From the NCBI RefSeq assembly GCF_014203155.1, contig NZ_JACHIK010000027.1, forward strand, positions 1-35,323: a DNA stretch of 35,323 nt, read 5' to 3'. The position numbers were made by a program, and so were the translations under genes. The notes under the pieces are model-generated. The model saw nothing but the letters and a program-made list of their open reading frames with translations, did not search any database and was not told the origin of the DNA. Positions 15,213 through 35,258 of this stretch are shown here, piece after piece. The stretch is from Shinella fusca (GTDB lineage Bacteria; Pseudomonadota; Alphaproteobacteria; Rhizobiales; Rhizobiaceae). Numbering within the stretch: the first letter of the stretch is position 1; every line of letters begins with the position of its first letter.

Positions 15213-15336
15213 CCTGCCCCTCATCCCCCTGCCGGGACCTTCTCCCCGCAGGCGGGGAGAAGGGGAAAAACGGCGAGGCTTTCCTTCCTCGCCCCGCCTG
15301 CGGGGAGAGGATGCCGGCAGGCAGGTGAGGGGCAGG
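15213..15336. repeat. Complete RIME-type two-palindrome element
   Basis: The element is bounded by inverted 11-mers CCTGCCCCTCA (15213-15223) and TGAGGGGCAGG (15326-15336). Inside are two palindromes, about 15238-15263 and 15286-15311, each with CCCCGC-x2-GCGGGG cores. It fills most of the gap between degP and the response regulator, and its stems could end or stabilise the degP transcript. It is the only complete copy in the window and serves as the reference for the two IS-interrupted copies. Confidence 0.85.
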
Positions 15337-20492: not shown

Positions 20493-20560
20493 GTGCACAT
20501 GGAGGGGAGGTGGTTCACTCACACCCCCGCCTGACCCCTTCCTTTTTCCGCCTCTCCTTC

Positions 20561-20648
20561 GTCATCCTCGGGCTTGACCCGAGGATCCACGCATCCCCGC
20601 CTGCCTTGAGTTCGTGGCATGGATCCTCGGGTCAAGCCCGAGGATGAC
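20561..20648. terminator. Long inverted repeat, probable bidirectional terminator
   Basis: Perfect 29-bp arms (20561-20589 and 20620-20648) enclose a 30-bp loop. Each arm is itself a palindrome with a CCTCGGG-CTTGA-CCCGAGG core. The sequence type GTCATCCTCGGGCTTGACCC is a widespread alphaproteobacterial intergenic repeat. It lies between the glnE stop (20492) and the pleC stop (20704), where both transcripts would end. There is no long T tract. Confidence 0.75.
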
Positions 20649-20703
20649 GTCAAAGGGTGAGGTGACGGCGTGTCCCACGAATGGCAACCCGCAGCGCGCC
20701 CGT

Positions 20704-29694: not shown

Positions 29695-30633
29695 ATGGAC
29701 GCGCCGTATTCGAACCCCATGCGGGGTATCTTGCTCAAGGTCGCCTCGGTGGTGATCTTCCTGTGCATGTCCACGCTCATCAAGGCGGCCGGCAAGGATC
29801 TGGCGGCGGGGCAGATCACTTTCCTGCGCTCGGCCTTCGCCATCGTGCCCATCGCCATCTATTTCGGCTGTCGCGGCGAGCTCGTCGACGCCTTCCGCAC
29901 CCGCGATCTCACCGGGCATCTCATGCGCGGCTTCGTCGGTATCCTCGCCATGGGCTGCGGCTTCTACGGCCTCACCCGCCTGCCGCTGCCGGAGGCGATC
30001 GCCATCGGCTATGCCATGCCGCTCATTGCCGTCGTCATCGCCGCGGTGTTCCTGCAGGAGACCGTCGGCCTCTATCGCTGGTCGGCGGTGCTGGTGGGGC
30101 TGACCGGCGTCGTCATCATCACCTGGCCGCGCCTCACGCTCTTTCGCGACGGCGGGGTCGGCTCGGTGGAGGCGATGGGGGCGCTCGCCGTGCTCGCCTC
30201 GGCGACGCTCGGGGCCTGCGCGATGGTGCTGGTGCGAAAGCTCGTGCAGGCCGAGCGCACGCACACGATCGTCCTTTATTTCTCGCTTTCGGCCTCGGTC
30301 TTCTCGCTGGTGACGCTGCCCTTCGGCTGGAGCGAACTGAGCTGGCAGGCGCTGATCCTTCTTGCGCTCGCCGGCTTCTGCGGCGGCATCGCCCAGCTTC
30401 TCCTGACGGCGAGCTACCGCTATGCGGACGTCTCCACCATCGCGCCGTTCGAATACACCTCGATCGTGCTCGGCCTCGTCATCGGCTATTTCCTGTTCGG
30501 CGACGTGCCGACGGGCGCCATGCTGGTCGGCACGGTCATCGTGGTGATCGCGGGCATCTTCGTCATCCTGCGCGAGCATCGCCTCGGCCTGCAGCGCCGC
30601 GCGGCCCGCAAGCACATCACGCCTCAGGGCTGA
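29695..30633 (+). CDS. EamA/DMT-family transporter
   Basis: A 312-residue membrane protein with about ten hydrophobic helices in two repeated EamA halves (about 10-140 and 160-300), as in drug/metabolite exporters and S-adenosylmethionine or amino-acid transporters of this superfamily. Features include FLRSAFAIVPIAIYFG, RLPLPEAIAIGYAMPLIAVVIAA and an ASYRYADVSTIAPFEYTSIVLGLVIGY segment in the second half. The substrate is unknown. It has a poor SD (GACGAG). Its 3' end overlaps that of the convergent MFS gene by 10 bp. Confidence 0.88.
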   Translation: MDAPYSNPMRGILLKVASVVIFLCMSTLIKAAGKDLAAGQITFLRSAFAIVPIAIYFGCRGELVDAFRTRDLTGHLMRGFVGILAMGCGFYGLTRLPLPEAIAIGYAMPLIAVVIAAVFLQETVGLYRWSAVLVGLTGVVIITWPRLTLFRDGGVGSVEAMGALAVLASATLGACAMVLVRKLVQAERTHTIVLYFSLSASVFSLVTLPFGWSELSWQALILLALAGFCGGIAQLLLTASYRYADVSTIAPFEYTSIVLGLVIGYFLFGDVPTGAMLVGTVIVVIAGIFVILREHRLGLQRRAARKHITPQG

Positions 30634-31910
30634 CGCCATTCCGGCGTCGTGGTGTCCTCCAGCACGTCCTCGGCGGGCGCATCCGGCTGGAGCGCGGCGG
30701 CGGCGGCATCCGCGCCGAGCGGCTGCGCGGCCATCGCCTGGAAGTCCGTCTTGGCGACGAGGCCGTCGTTCTCCTCGCGCCGGCTGATGCGCCAGGCCGC
30801 ATAGGCGCCGTAGAGCGCGAAATAGACGGCCAGCACAGCAAAGAGCGATCCCGGCCCGAAGCGGTCCATGATCGGCCCGACCATCAGCGGCCCGGATATC
30901 GTGCCGAAGCCGTAGACGATCATCATGCCGGAGGAGACCTCGACATATTCGTCCGGCTGCGCGCGGTCGTTGGCATGGGCGACGTTCAGCGCATAGATCG
31001 GGAAGATGACCGAGCCGACGAAGGCCGCGACGACATAGAGCAGCGCCGCCGGCCCGCCGGAAACCATCGCCATGACGAGGCAGGAGACGGTGCCGACCGC
31101 CCCGCAGGCAACCATGACGAGGCGGCGGTCCATGCGGTCGGAGGCCCGCCCGATGGGGATCTGCGAAAGGGCGCTGCCGATCAGCACCGAGGCGAGCAGC
31201 GTCGCGCCCTCGGCGGTGGAAAGGCCCGTGCGCTGGGTGAACACGCCGCCGAGGTTCAGCCATGCTCCGGAGAGCGCGCCGGCCAGGAACGCGCCGACGA
31301 CGGCGACGGGCGAGCGGCGGTAGAGCGCCGGCACGTTGAAGCGCGCCTGCGTCGGCGGGGCGGGCAGCGGCGAGGAGGTGAGTGCCGTCGGCAGCAGCGC
31401 GACGGAGAAGATGATGCCGCACAGGATGAAGAGCGAGGTGTTCGACGGATCGCCGAGCGGCACGAGATACTGCCCGCCGATCGTGCCGACCATGGTGGTG
31501 ATGAGGTAGATGGAGAAGACCGAGCCGCGGTTCTCGTTGGTCACCCGCTCGTTCAGCCAGCTCTCGATGATGAGGTAGCTGCCGGAAATGGCAAAGCCGG
31601 AAATGCCGCGAAAGAGCATCCAGGCCCGCCAGTCGACGGCGAGCGCGCAGAGCAGGATGGCGATGGCCAGCAGCGTGATCAGCGCCACGAAGACCCGCAC
31701 ATGGCCGACGAGCAGCACGAATTTCGGCGTGACGACGCAGGAGAGCGTGAAGCCGATCGTATAGCCCGTCGCGATCATCGAGATCGTCTGCGTCGACCAG
31801 CCCTCGGCGACGGCGCGCACCGGCACGACATAGCTCTGGAGGCCGAAGGCCACCATCATGAGGAGGGTGGACAGCATCAGGCTGAGAATGGAGGCGAGGC
31901 TCGCCAGCAT
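30624..31910 (-). CDS. MFS transporter
   Basis: A 428-residue major facilitator with about 12 helices, a cytoplasmic loop after helix 6 (SSPLPAPPTQARFN) and the signature loop between helices 8 and 9, GRASDRMDRRLVMV, matching the MFS motif GxxxDrxgrr. The C-terminal tail of about 45 residues is alanine/acid-rich and soluble. It resembles the YcaD/TetA-like proton-driven exporter group, but the substrate is unknown. The 187 bp upstream lead into the small-ORF locus on the opposite strand. Confidence 0.88.
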   Translation of the reverse strand: MLASLASILSLMLSTLLMMVAFGLQSYVVPVRAVAEGWSTQTISMIATGYTIGFTLSCVVTPKFVLLVGHVRVFVALITLLAIAILLCALAVDWRAWMLFRGISGFAISGSYLIIESWLNERVTNENRGSVFSIYLITTMVGTIGGQYLVPLGDPSNTSLFILCGIIFSVALLPTALTSSPLPAPPTQARFNVPALYRRSPVAVVGAFLAGALSGAWLNLGGVFTQRTGLSTAEGATLLASVLIGSALSQIPIGRASDRMDRRLVMVACGAVGTVSCLVMAMVSGGPAALLYVVAAFVGSVIFPIYALNVAHANDRAQPDEYVEVSSGMMIVYGFGTISGPLMVGPIMDRFGPGSLFAVLAVYFALYGAYAAWRISRREENDGLVAKTDFQAMAAQPLGADAAAAALQPDAPAEDVLEDTTTPEWRQP

Positions 31911-31998
31911 GAGGGCTCCGCAGAATGGCGCGACAGGTTTGCGACTGTCGCTCTATTGCGGCGCCCGCGCGCTGTCTACAGCGACAACGGTTGGCGTA

Positions 31999-32019
31999 AT
32001 CCGGGAAGATTTCCCGGAT
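31999..32019. promoter_or_regulatory. Perfect palindrome ATCCGGGAA-GAT-TTCCCGGAT
   Basis: Nine-bp perfect arms flank a 3-bp centre in the gap between the MFS start (31910) and the small peptide gene. As DNA it is a good operator shape for a dimeric regulator of either divergent unit; as RNA it would form a tight hairpin. A smaller dyad GCGAC-T-GTCGC lies at 31941-31951, close to the MFS start. Confidence 0.45.
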
Positions 32020-32058
32020 GGTTTGGCGATTCCCGGCAGGGTTGTGTTATGGAGAAGG

Positions 32059-32221
32059 GCCGGATCGATTTCCGGCAAACGAAAGGAGGTGAGACGTTTG
32101 AAAATCCGGCTTACGTTGGTTATCAGGTTTCGAGGTTGGCGCCTAACCCTGACGATCAGCTAAGAAAACGGGGATCGGGCTTCGGCCCGGTTCCCACCGG
32201 AGAAAAGGCGTCTCACCTCCT
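32059..32221 (+). ncRNA. Structured small RNA/mRNA with SD and anti-SD arms
   Basis: Elements in order are: hairpin GCCGGA/TCCGGC (32059-32076); an SD arm AGGAGGTGAGACG (32084-32096); the 21-codon ORF; an 11-pair stem with a TTCG tetraloop (32170-32195, core CGGGC-TTCG-GCCCG); and CGTCTCACCTCCT (32209-32221), the exact 13-nt complement of the SD arm. Pairing of the two arms would close the whole RNA and hide the ribosome site. The downstream arm includes TCACCTCCT, identical to the 16S rRNA anti-SD tail. Transcription direction is inferred from the ORF. Exact RNA ends are unknown. I do not recognise a named RNA family. Confidence 0.5.
32098..32163 (+). CDS. 21-residue cationic beta-patterned peptide (TTG start)
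   Basis: A short ORF starting TTG, 7 nt after AGGAGGT; the wider GAAAGGAGGTGA (32081-32092) matches 12 nt of the complement of the 16S 3' end, an unusually strong SD. The peptide alternates basic/polar and hydrophobic residues (KIRLTLVIRF, then RG, then WRLTLTIS), with two similar halves around an arginine-glycine turn, like a cationic beta-hairpin. It has five arginines, one lysine and no acidic residue. No known family is recognised. The SD is complementary to a downstream arm, suggesting controlled translation. Possible roles are a membrane-active (type I toxin-like) peptide or a translated regulatory sORF. It is too short for composition tests. Confidence 0.5.
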   Translation: MKIRLTLVIRFRGWRLTLTIS

Positions 32222-32266
32222 CACGTCGAAGACGATACCACGACGCCCGCCGCTTTTCAAAGCGGC

Positions 32267-32410
32267 TCAGTTCGGCAGGAAGGCCTTGAGCGGGTCGCGG
32301 CGCTGGGCGGCATCGCGCGGCAGCGAGGCGAGCACGGAATATTCGCGCGCGGCATTCACGGCGGCGCGGATATCGGCGATATCGGACATCAGCTTGCGGA
32401 TGCGGGCCAT
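32267..32410 (-). CDS. Small protein of unknown function, 47 residues
   Basis: An ORF reading MARIRKLMSDIADIRAAVNA..., ending DPLKAFLPN. It looks mostly helical with a basic start and a mixed amphipathic middle, without a membrane segment or signal. A GAGGG SD lies about 7 nt upstream (32416-32420 on the plus strand). It starts 10 bp after the stop of the other small gene, so the two probably form an operon. Its stop codon abuts an 8-bp dyad GCCGCTTT/AAAGCGGC (32249-32266). No family recognised; possibly a DUF1127-size small rhizobial protein, but the DUF1127 motif is absent. Confidence 0.55.
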   Translation of the reverse strand: MARIRKLMSDIADIRAAVNAAREYSVLASLPRDAAQRRDPLKAFLPN

Positions 32411-35145: not shown

Positions 35146-35258
35146 GCCCCTCACCCTAACCCTCTCCCCGCAAGCGGGGAGAGGGGACTTGCCTCACGAA
35201 GGAGCTTTGGTTGGGGAAACCGGTCCGGCATACCCCTTCGCCCCGCTTGCGGGGAGAG
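35146..35258. repeat. RIME-type element, truncated by the second IS
   Basis: It begins GCCCCTCACCCTAACCC, with palindrome 1 about 35160-35185 (CTCTCCCCGC-aa-GCGGGGAGAG) and palindrome 2 about 35233-35258 (CCCCTTCGCCCCGC/GCGGGGAGAG). Compared with the intact copy at 15213-15336, the closing flank (GATGCCGGCAGGCAGGTGAGGGG) is missing and IS sequence starts at 35259. It separates the yegD-like gene from the IS. Confidence 0.8.

Follow-up and report, generated by a model that had tools for sequence, protein, structure and literature searches.

Why should a 21-codon open reading frame (ORF) in Shinella fusca carry a Shine-Dalgarno (SD) sequence whose core is matched, base for base, by a complementary arm downstream of its own stop codon? 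The element lies at approximately 32059-32260 of the window, by which we mean the whole 35,323-nucleotide stretch of S. fusca DNA that was analysed, between a divergent MFS transporter gene (30624-31910, minus strand) and a 47-codon minus-strand ORF (32267-32410), and occupies a single locus in its own genome. An earlier, sequence-only reading had proposed an undescribed small ORF of toxin-like or switch type. The small size of both peptide and RNA makes type I toxin-antitoxin loci difficult to detect. A major hallmark of such loci, according to the sections of PMC6733600 available, is a primary transcript that is untranslatable and has its SD occluded, in some families through long-distance 5'-3' pairing. 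On the evidence assembled here, the S. fusca element is probably a type I toxin-antitoxin-like cassette of phage derivation, whose cargo, an unusual beta-hairpin-like peptide, we infer to be toxic. Its parts are collected in Table 1.

Table 1. Parts of the S. fusca element, with positions in the window and the basis of each assignment
Feature	Position	Strand	Basis
Sense promoter, probable -10 TATGGA preceded by TGT	32048-32053	+	read from sequence
5' stem-loop of the message, GCCGGATCGATTTCCGGC	32059-32076	+	predicted fold
SD, GAAAGGAGGTGA, 12 nt	32081-32092	+	sole perfect copy in the window
5' arm of SD-sequestering stem	32084-32096	+	fold, repeat finder, covariation
21-codon ORF, TTG start 32098-32100, TAA stop 32161-32163, product MKIRLTLVIRFRGWRLTLTIS	32098-32163	+	translation, coding selection
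Hairpin formed by the coding sequence	32110-32164	+	fold; covariation (helix 2)
G+C-rich hairpin with TTCG loop	32170-32195	+	fold; covariation (helix 4)
Anti-SD arm, CGTCTCACCTCCT	32209-32221	+	fold, repeat finder, covariation
Antisense promoter -10, TATCGT, preceded by extended -10 TGG	32232-32237	-	promoter scoring
Antisense promoter -35, TTGAAA, 17-bp spacer	32255-32260	-	promoter scoring

The SD, which we take to be the complement of the 16S 3' end (no 16S gene was found in this draft genome), is matched with up to two mismatches at eight places in the window against 1.8 expected. Its 13-nt core and the anti-SD arm are complementary at 13/13 positions, just as the sequence-only reading had it, and a repeat finder extends the match to 18 nt at 89%. 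By our own arithmetic the chance of finding the complement of a given 13-mer inside about 250 nt is around 4e-6, and we accept the complementarity as real because both arms change together in homologues; on both grounds the earlier judgement that the match was improbable by chance holds. In the minimum-energy fold a 16-bp outer stem (32084-32099 with 32206-32221) is predicted to bury the SD together with the start codon's first two bases, and encloses a junction stem, the hairpin of the coding sequence and the TTCG hairpin that had already been noticed between the arms. This fold has an energy of -94 kcal/mol, compared with -62.97 +/- 4.28 kcal/mol for 200 shuffled sequences (z = -7.25), none of which was as stable. 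Upstream of the SD, a perfect stem of 5-9 bp occurs at the position of the 5' stem-loop in 43 of 54 elements, compared with 41% of random stretches.

These 54 elements were collected from Alphaproteobacteria and viral contigs, and the 51 with an intact ORF form alignment A2, from which L012 and L059, both frameshifted, and L004, whose stop codon is lost, are excluded. Across A2, 93.9% of cells pair on the predicted structure (81.2% when shuffled), 19 of 31 pairs are changed on both sides (13.9 when shuffled), and the covariation score is 0.392 compared with 0.173 for shuffled alignments and at most 0.119 for slid versions; these figures are to be read in the knowledge that the sequences are related and that the structure was derived from the same alignment. 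Compensatory change in the arms, which the sequence-only reading had put forward as a check, is plentiful, with 191 double-change cells against 53.3 in shuffles. The outer stem pairs in 97.3% of cells, with changes on both sides in 6 of its 11 pairs, and the hairpins of the coding sequence and the TTCG loop (helices 2 and 4, nine pairs each) have six and five such pairs respectively. Variants of the SD arm are themselves compensated, GGAGG being replaced by GGGGG with CCCCC opposite or by GGTGG with CCACC, and a phage record has the arms GGGGGTGTTGCG paired with CGCAACACCCCC. Judged from modelled structure and covariation, the SD lock is genuine, conserved and self-sequestering, and the primary transcript is predicted to present the occluded SD that is typical of type I loci.

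The ORF within the lock behaves as a gene. Twenty disjoint pairs of homologues give a pN/pS of 0.51 for the reading frame of the ORF, whereas the two other sense frames give 1.09 and 2.02 and the three opposite-strand frames 0.89, 0.59 and 1.18; the corresponding values across 277 pairs are 0.60 for the ORF and 1.04, 1.84, 1.08, 0.69 and 1.26 for the other frames. The low value of 0.59 belongs to opposite-strand frame -2, which contains stop codons in 7 of 51 copies, and is probably due to codons that share wobble positions. Among the 51 copies the start codon is TTG in 37, GTG in 12, and ATG and CTG in one each, and the stop codon is TAA in 44, TAG in 6 and TGA in one. Several homologues have an in-frame stop only 2-6 codons upstream of the start, so that the ORF is truly short. 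These substitution patterns indicate that the 21-codon ORF is under coding selection and is presumably translated, and it falls well below the 60 codons within which a selected ORF is sought in type I systems.

Type I toxins are usually, if not universally, hydrophobic membrane-spanning helices. Hydropathy analysis found no such helix in the window's peptide, which has a hydropathy of 0.55, a best 15-residue stretch of 0.70 and a beta-type moment of 2.54. Instead, hydrophobic residues alternate with charged or polar residues on either side of a central turn, a pattern that fits what a predicted amphipathic beta-hairpin would need. With a free turn position and tryptophan counted as hydrophobic, the pattern scores a mean z of 2.84 over 46 distinct peptides; that of the window's peptide is equalled by 2 of 300 shuffles, and the weakest, of the G220/L029 type and in the second copy of G050, by 22-66 of 300. 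The pattern is kept in far-diverged relatives such as MKFRELKLKIKFFGTNIELIIKF (L079) and MRLPKLRLRIRFRRFKLDLFIG (L132), and net charge is +2 to +7 across the peptides and +5 for the 21 residues of the window's own. The cationic character, alternating hydrophobic residues and turn described by the sequence-only reading are therefore borne out, as is the conservation of the pattern for which it had suggested looking. When three peptides were searched, Pfam gave a single sub-threshold match (Tlr3_TMD, 15.8 bits against a cut-off of 25) and NCBIfam and PHROGs gave none; one peptide searched against PDB also gave none. Beta structure is possible in some known type I toxins, given that a table legend in PMC8309996 marks beta-sheet as well as helix.

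In three loci the cargo is a different one. Two of them, L112 and L114, share with their relatives the lock, the hairpin, the dyad upstream, the antisense promoter and the downstream helix-turn-helix (HTH) gene, and fold with z = -8.07 and -9.24, but encode the peptides MKLLKLATLVVLIFLAGTQTAN and MKLLKLAILVALLILADTHAAW respectively, which have hydropathies of 1.30 and 1.57 and a best 15-residue stretch of about 2.5. L138 has other arms (AAGGAGTAAGG/CCTTACTCCTT), a hydrophobic peptide and TTGAGG-17-TATTAT on the opposite strand. The cargo of all three is of the hydrophobic-helix kind by which type I toxins are usually recognised. Were the cassette of type I, the RNA lock and the peptide that it guards would seem to evolve independently of each other. 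The exchange, across three loci and by analogy with known toxins, is the strongest argument for a toxin role, and with different peptides on one chassis it becomes directly testable whether the lock is generic.

Just past the anti-SD, on the opposite strand, the family shares a sigma-70-type motif consisting of TTGAAA, a 16-17 bp spacer, TGn and a TATAAT-like box. Its mean score is 10.55 in 41 elements scored without an HTH gene and 10.73 in 13 with one, compared with 7.42 +/- 1.20 in 3000 random stretches, and the 99th percentile of that control is reached by 23 of the 41. When L078 and L105, both of which an HTH gene adjoins, were removed from the set lacking that gene, 39 promoter stretches in 21 groups were left; their score was 10.64, while dinucleotide shuffles gave 7.84 and the other strand 7.31 (mean z 3.46). 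No more than 2 of 200 shuffles were as good in 16 of these groups, and promoters were weak in the other five (the L028 and L041 groups, two Chthonobacter groups and L061). For the element in the window, none of 200 shuffles scored as high, with a -10 box of only 4/6. Near HTH genes the -35 overlaps conserved FK codons and therefore provides no independent evidence, but the promoter is also present in L108, L131 and L138, in which something other than the HTH gene directly follows the element. The predicted start, near 32225, sits a few bases outside the lock, so that an antisense RNA would cover the entire message; the conserved promoter probably directs such a candidate RNA. The sense promoter is modest, with no convincing -35 found on reading the sequence and a family mean of 8.97 against 8.00 +/- 1.10 in random stretches, and inspection by eye found no clear intrinsic terminator for either strand. 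The antisense promoter was overlooked by the sequence-only reading, as were the HTH partner in phages and the exchange of peptides.

Searches with model R1, built from 10 sequences, matched 18 of 394 genomes of the family at E 0.01; on inspection these comprised 15 full elements, one degenerate copy (L031) and two chance-like matches (L032, L033), which were set aside. Four of 297 genomes matched in the order, and the broader model R2 matched three of 385 in the class, each count including the S. fusca genome, which was the sole match among 299 of the phylum. These counts are lower bounds, since stricter filters apply whenever more than 40 genomes are searched. The exact two-arm pattern was found in 25 stretches of named genomes, one of which (L062, Streptomyces) is a plain palindrome and was set aside; the other 24 are from Shinella, Phyllobacterium, Brucella endophytica, Brucella daejeonensis, Rhizobium, Aureimonas, Chthonobacter, Pseudochelatococcus and unclassified Rhizobiales. 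It follows from both kinds of search that the distribution is sporadic and centred on Hyphomicrobiales. 'Rhizobial', the term used at first, describes this centre but is too narrow, for other alphaproteobacterial families, viral contigs and the Azospirillum sp. TSH58 plasmid TSH58_p02 (L152) carry the element too, the plasmid copy having a longer peptide, MDFLRWLKSLFPKFRFKIRLTAEIELDTRDRS, and an HTH gene.

Copies may be multiple, with four at 308-bp spacing in G220, five in G660, two genuine elements (L079, L090) in one genome of the presumed genus Bartonella and two with different peptides in Shinella granuli (L049); a genome search gave a further match in G719 (E 0.008). Others are broken, being frameshifted (L012, L059), without their stop (L004, L052) or reduced to a relic (L031), and the cassette is therefore dispensable in places. 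In L004 and L052, from two Shinella, the stop position reads CAA rather than TAA and the frame continues into the hairpin. Chance or false matches (L113, L153-L156) and matches of 24-25 bp (L010, L011) were set aside. No element was found in phage records searched by DNA or in one viral pattern search, and nothing was found in plasmids searched with the HTH protein L030, in E. coli genomes searched with the L138 element, or in phage records searched with the L138 and L131 peptides. Membership of a known Rfam family, which the sequence-only reading had named as a possible objection, is not indicated by any match to the window at gathering thresholds; a permissive scan gave a snoRNA match at 31842-31914 of chance level (12.2 bits, E 4.6), and five further loci together yielded nothing but a tRNA. 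No description of the element was found in the literature, of which few subscription papers were covered. The absence of an Rfam match or a published account, together with arm covariation and the peptide pattern, supports the proposal of an undescribed toxin-like or switch ORF.

A phage origin of the cassette is most likely, to judge by its neighbours. In viral contigs the element adjoins HNH, terminase or portal genes, and in most viral loci that carry it, it stands 15-21 nt upstream of the start codon of a small HTH gene, the product being Pfam HTH_3 in all five proteins scanned; an extra small ORF intervenes in L131 and L138. A search with an alignment of HTH proteins returned 31 viral loci, 20 of which were judged to carry the element (L134 and L144 by eye), although nine of the 20 come from contigs already in the set, leaving 11 of 22 new loci with several near-identical negatives. 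No such element precedes the plasmid HTH genes of Pectobacterium, Devosia and Azospirillum oryzae. Short dyads, for instance CGTACTCAGTACG, lie upstream of the element in phages, and perfect palindromes with a half-length of at least 5 are present in 41% of the 54 stretches upstream of an element and in 21% of controls; the HTH protein would, on this arrangement, repress the sense promoter. No HTH gene lies beside the window's element, and a search of its genome with one HTH protein, run without a positive control, was empty at E 0.01. The start of the HTH reading frame seems, on inspection by eye, to persist as a fossil inside the antisense promoter in Shinella and others.

The sense strand would then yield a short message opening with a protective stem-loop, and once its 3' end is made the SD and start codon would be locked with the anti-SD in a stem of 13-16 bp; with both locked, the full-length message is proposed to be untranslated. 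If AapA and Hok are a guide, the 3' arm would have to be removed or opened before the 21-residue, +5 peptide could be synthesised, a predicted amphipathic beta-hairpin that may act on the membrane. RNA from the opposite-strand promoter would pair with the whole message and so serve as antitoxin. The downstream HTH protein of phages would probably control the sense promoter through the dyad sites, and in Shinella the HTH gene has presumably gone and left the cassette to stand alone. The coding selection on the ORF, the covarying lock, the antisense promoter motif, the linkage to phages and the exchange of peptides are computed results; synthesis of the two RNAs, toxicity of the peptide, the activation step and the repressor role are what we infer. 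A broader proposal, held with slightly less belief than doubt, is of a modular phage-borne chassis (5' stem-loop, SD, tiny ORF, tetraloop hairpin, anti-SD and antisense promoter) for unrelated toxic peptides, mostly cationic beta-hairpins and elsewhere membrane helices, forming a type I class with a beta-hairpin toxin that Shinella and other Hyphomicrobiales would have domesticated into a unit standing by itself. Were the cassette of type I, it would represent a widespread alphaproteobacterial family defined by a strong structural RNA signature, and would add a beta-hairpin-like class of peptide.

Cationic amphipathic hairpin-like peptides resemble antimicrobial beta-hairpins. That likeness, and the HNH, terminase and portal genes beside the viral loci, would also suit an accessory peptide of phage derivation that is no self-toxin, serving for example in superinfection exclusion, signalling or as a secreted antimicrobial, and silenced by the lock and the antisense RNA. 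Two layers of silencing and exchange with a transmembrane-like peptide favour self-toxicity over this reading, which we regard as unlikely; no secretion signal happened to be noticed. It is a still less likely prospect that the element is a translated regulatory leader of the HTH gene, with ribosomes moving along the small ORF switching the RNA between open and closed forms and thereby determining how the downstream regulator is expressed; copies without the gene would then be relics. The close spacing to the HTH start in most viral loci with that gene would be expected of a leader, the sense transcript would continue into the gene, and in Bartonella XRE genes are preceded by another structured RNA, with a proposed riboswitch role (PMC5387305, in the part available); yet 39 of the 54 elements have no HTH gene directly downstream and most of these keep the lock, the ORF and the antisense promoter, another small ORF intervenes at two loci, as noted above, and a leader needs neither a conserved pattern of residues nor the whole replacement of the peptide in L112 and L114.

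An opposite-strand promoter that scores far above the sense promoter could point to a trans-acting small RNA as the functional product, with the sense ORF incidental, but selection acts on the sense frame, start and stop codons vary yet keep their function, and the one opposite frame with a low pN/pS is the frame interrupted by stops; we consider this very improbable. A palindromic mobile repeat would account for near-perfect inverted ends of 13-16 bp, but scarcely for a single locus in the S. fusca genome, coding selection and promoters that lie outside the repeat, and we give it almost no credence.

Among known systems, Hok/Sok, Ibs/Sib, Ldr/Rdl and TisB/IstR combine a tiny toxin ORF with antisense control and tandem copies. 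The type I-like cassette favoured here shares with them its tiny toxin-like ORF, predicted antisense control and tandem copies, as well as the hydrophobic-helix peptides of L112, L114 and L138; it differs in that the window's peptide is no such helix, the paired ends here surround a three-way junction and phage copies have an HTH partner. The resemblance to AapA/IsoA of Helicobacter and relatives, as drawn from sections of PMC6733600 and in part from general background, extends to a short ORF, an SD locked by a 3' anti-SD, a cis-antisense RNA over the message (predicted here) and several copies. Compared by description, the window's element differs from AapA/IsoA in its amphipathic alternating strands and in matching no Rfam family at gathering thresholds, and its family differs in TTG/GTG starts, the HTH partner in phages and its occurrence in Alphaproteobacteria.

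The Brt structured RNAs of Bartonella are described in the available part of PMC5387305, the main text of which makes no mention of 'peptide', as lying upstream of XRE-type (trp HTH) genes, with a proposed riboswitch role. They resemble the present element in being structured RNAs directly upstream of a small XRE-type gene, in multiple copies and in mobile regions (PMC5387305), but the Shinella copy has no adjacent HTH gene. Identity of the two, suspected at first, seems unlikely, since R2 gave no match at E 10 to 11 loci, nine of them probable Brt loci picked, in the presumed genus Bartonella, by position upstream of Trp-like genes, the comparison containing no Brt sequences as such. A different conserved structured RNA, approximately 260 bases upstream of the HTH match, precedes Trp-like HTH genes at L082, L083, L086, L088, L092, L094-L096 and L098; it is probably the Brt family, and an Rfam scan of L082 gave nothing at the gathering threshold.

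Some further features were observed in passing. The annotated phage record MW202613 (L147) has both the element and an HTH gene, but nothing is annotated at that place on their strand. Upstream of the sense promoter region in the window is an 8-bp inverted repeat, TCCGGGAA-GAT-TTCCCGGA (32000-32018), possibly a candidate operator; in the related Shinella locus L003, TCCGGGAATTCCCGGA stands closer to the message. The end of the 47-codon minus-strand ORF (MARIRKLMSDIADIR...LKAFLPN) lies a short way upstream of the antisense promoter, and other Shinella have similar sequence after the element, so that the transcript of this ORF might also run antisense across the element. Elsewhere in the window there are large intergenic-type inverted repeats at 71-180, 15213-15336, 20560-20649 and 35162-35258, with arms of 25-57 nt that are 77-97% complementary, several of which have a CTCCCCGC core and the appearance of dispersed rhizobial palindromes.
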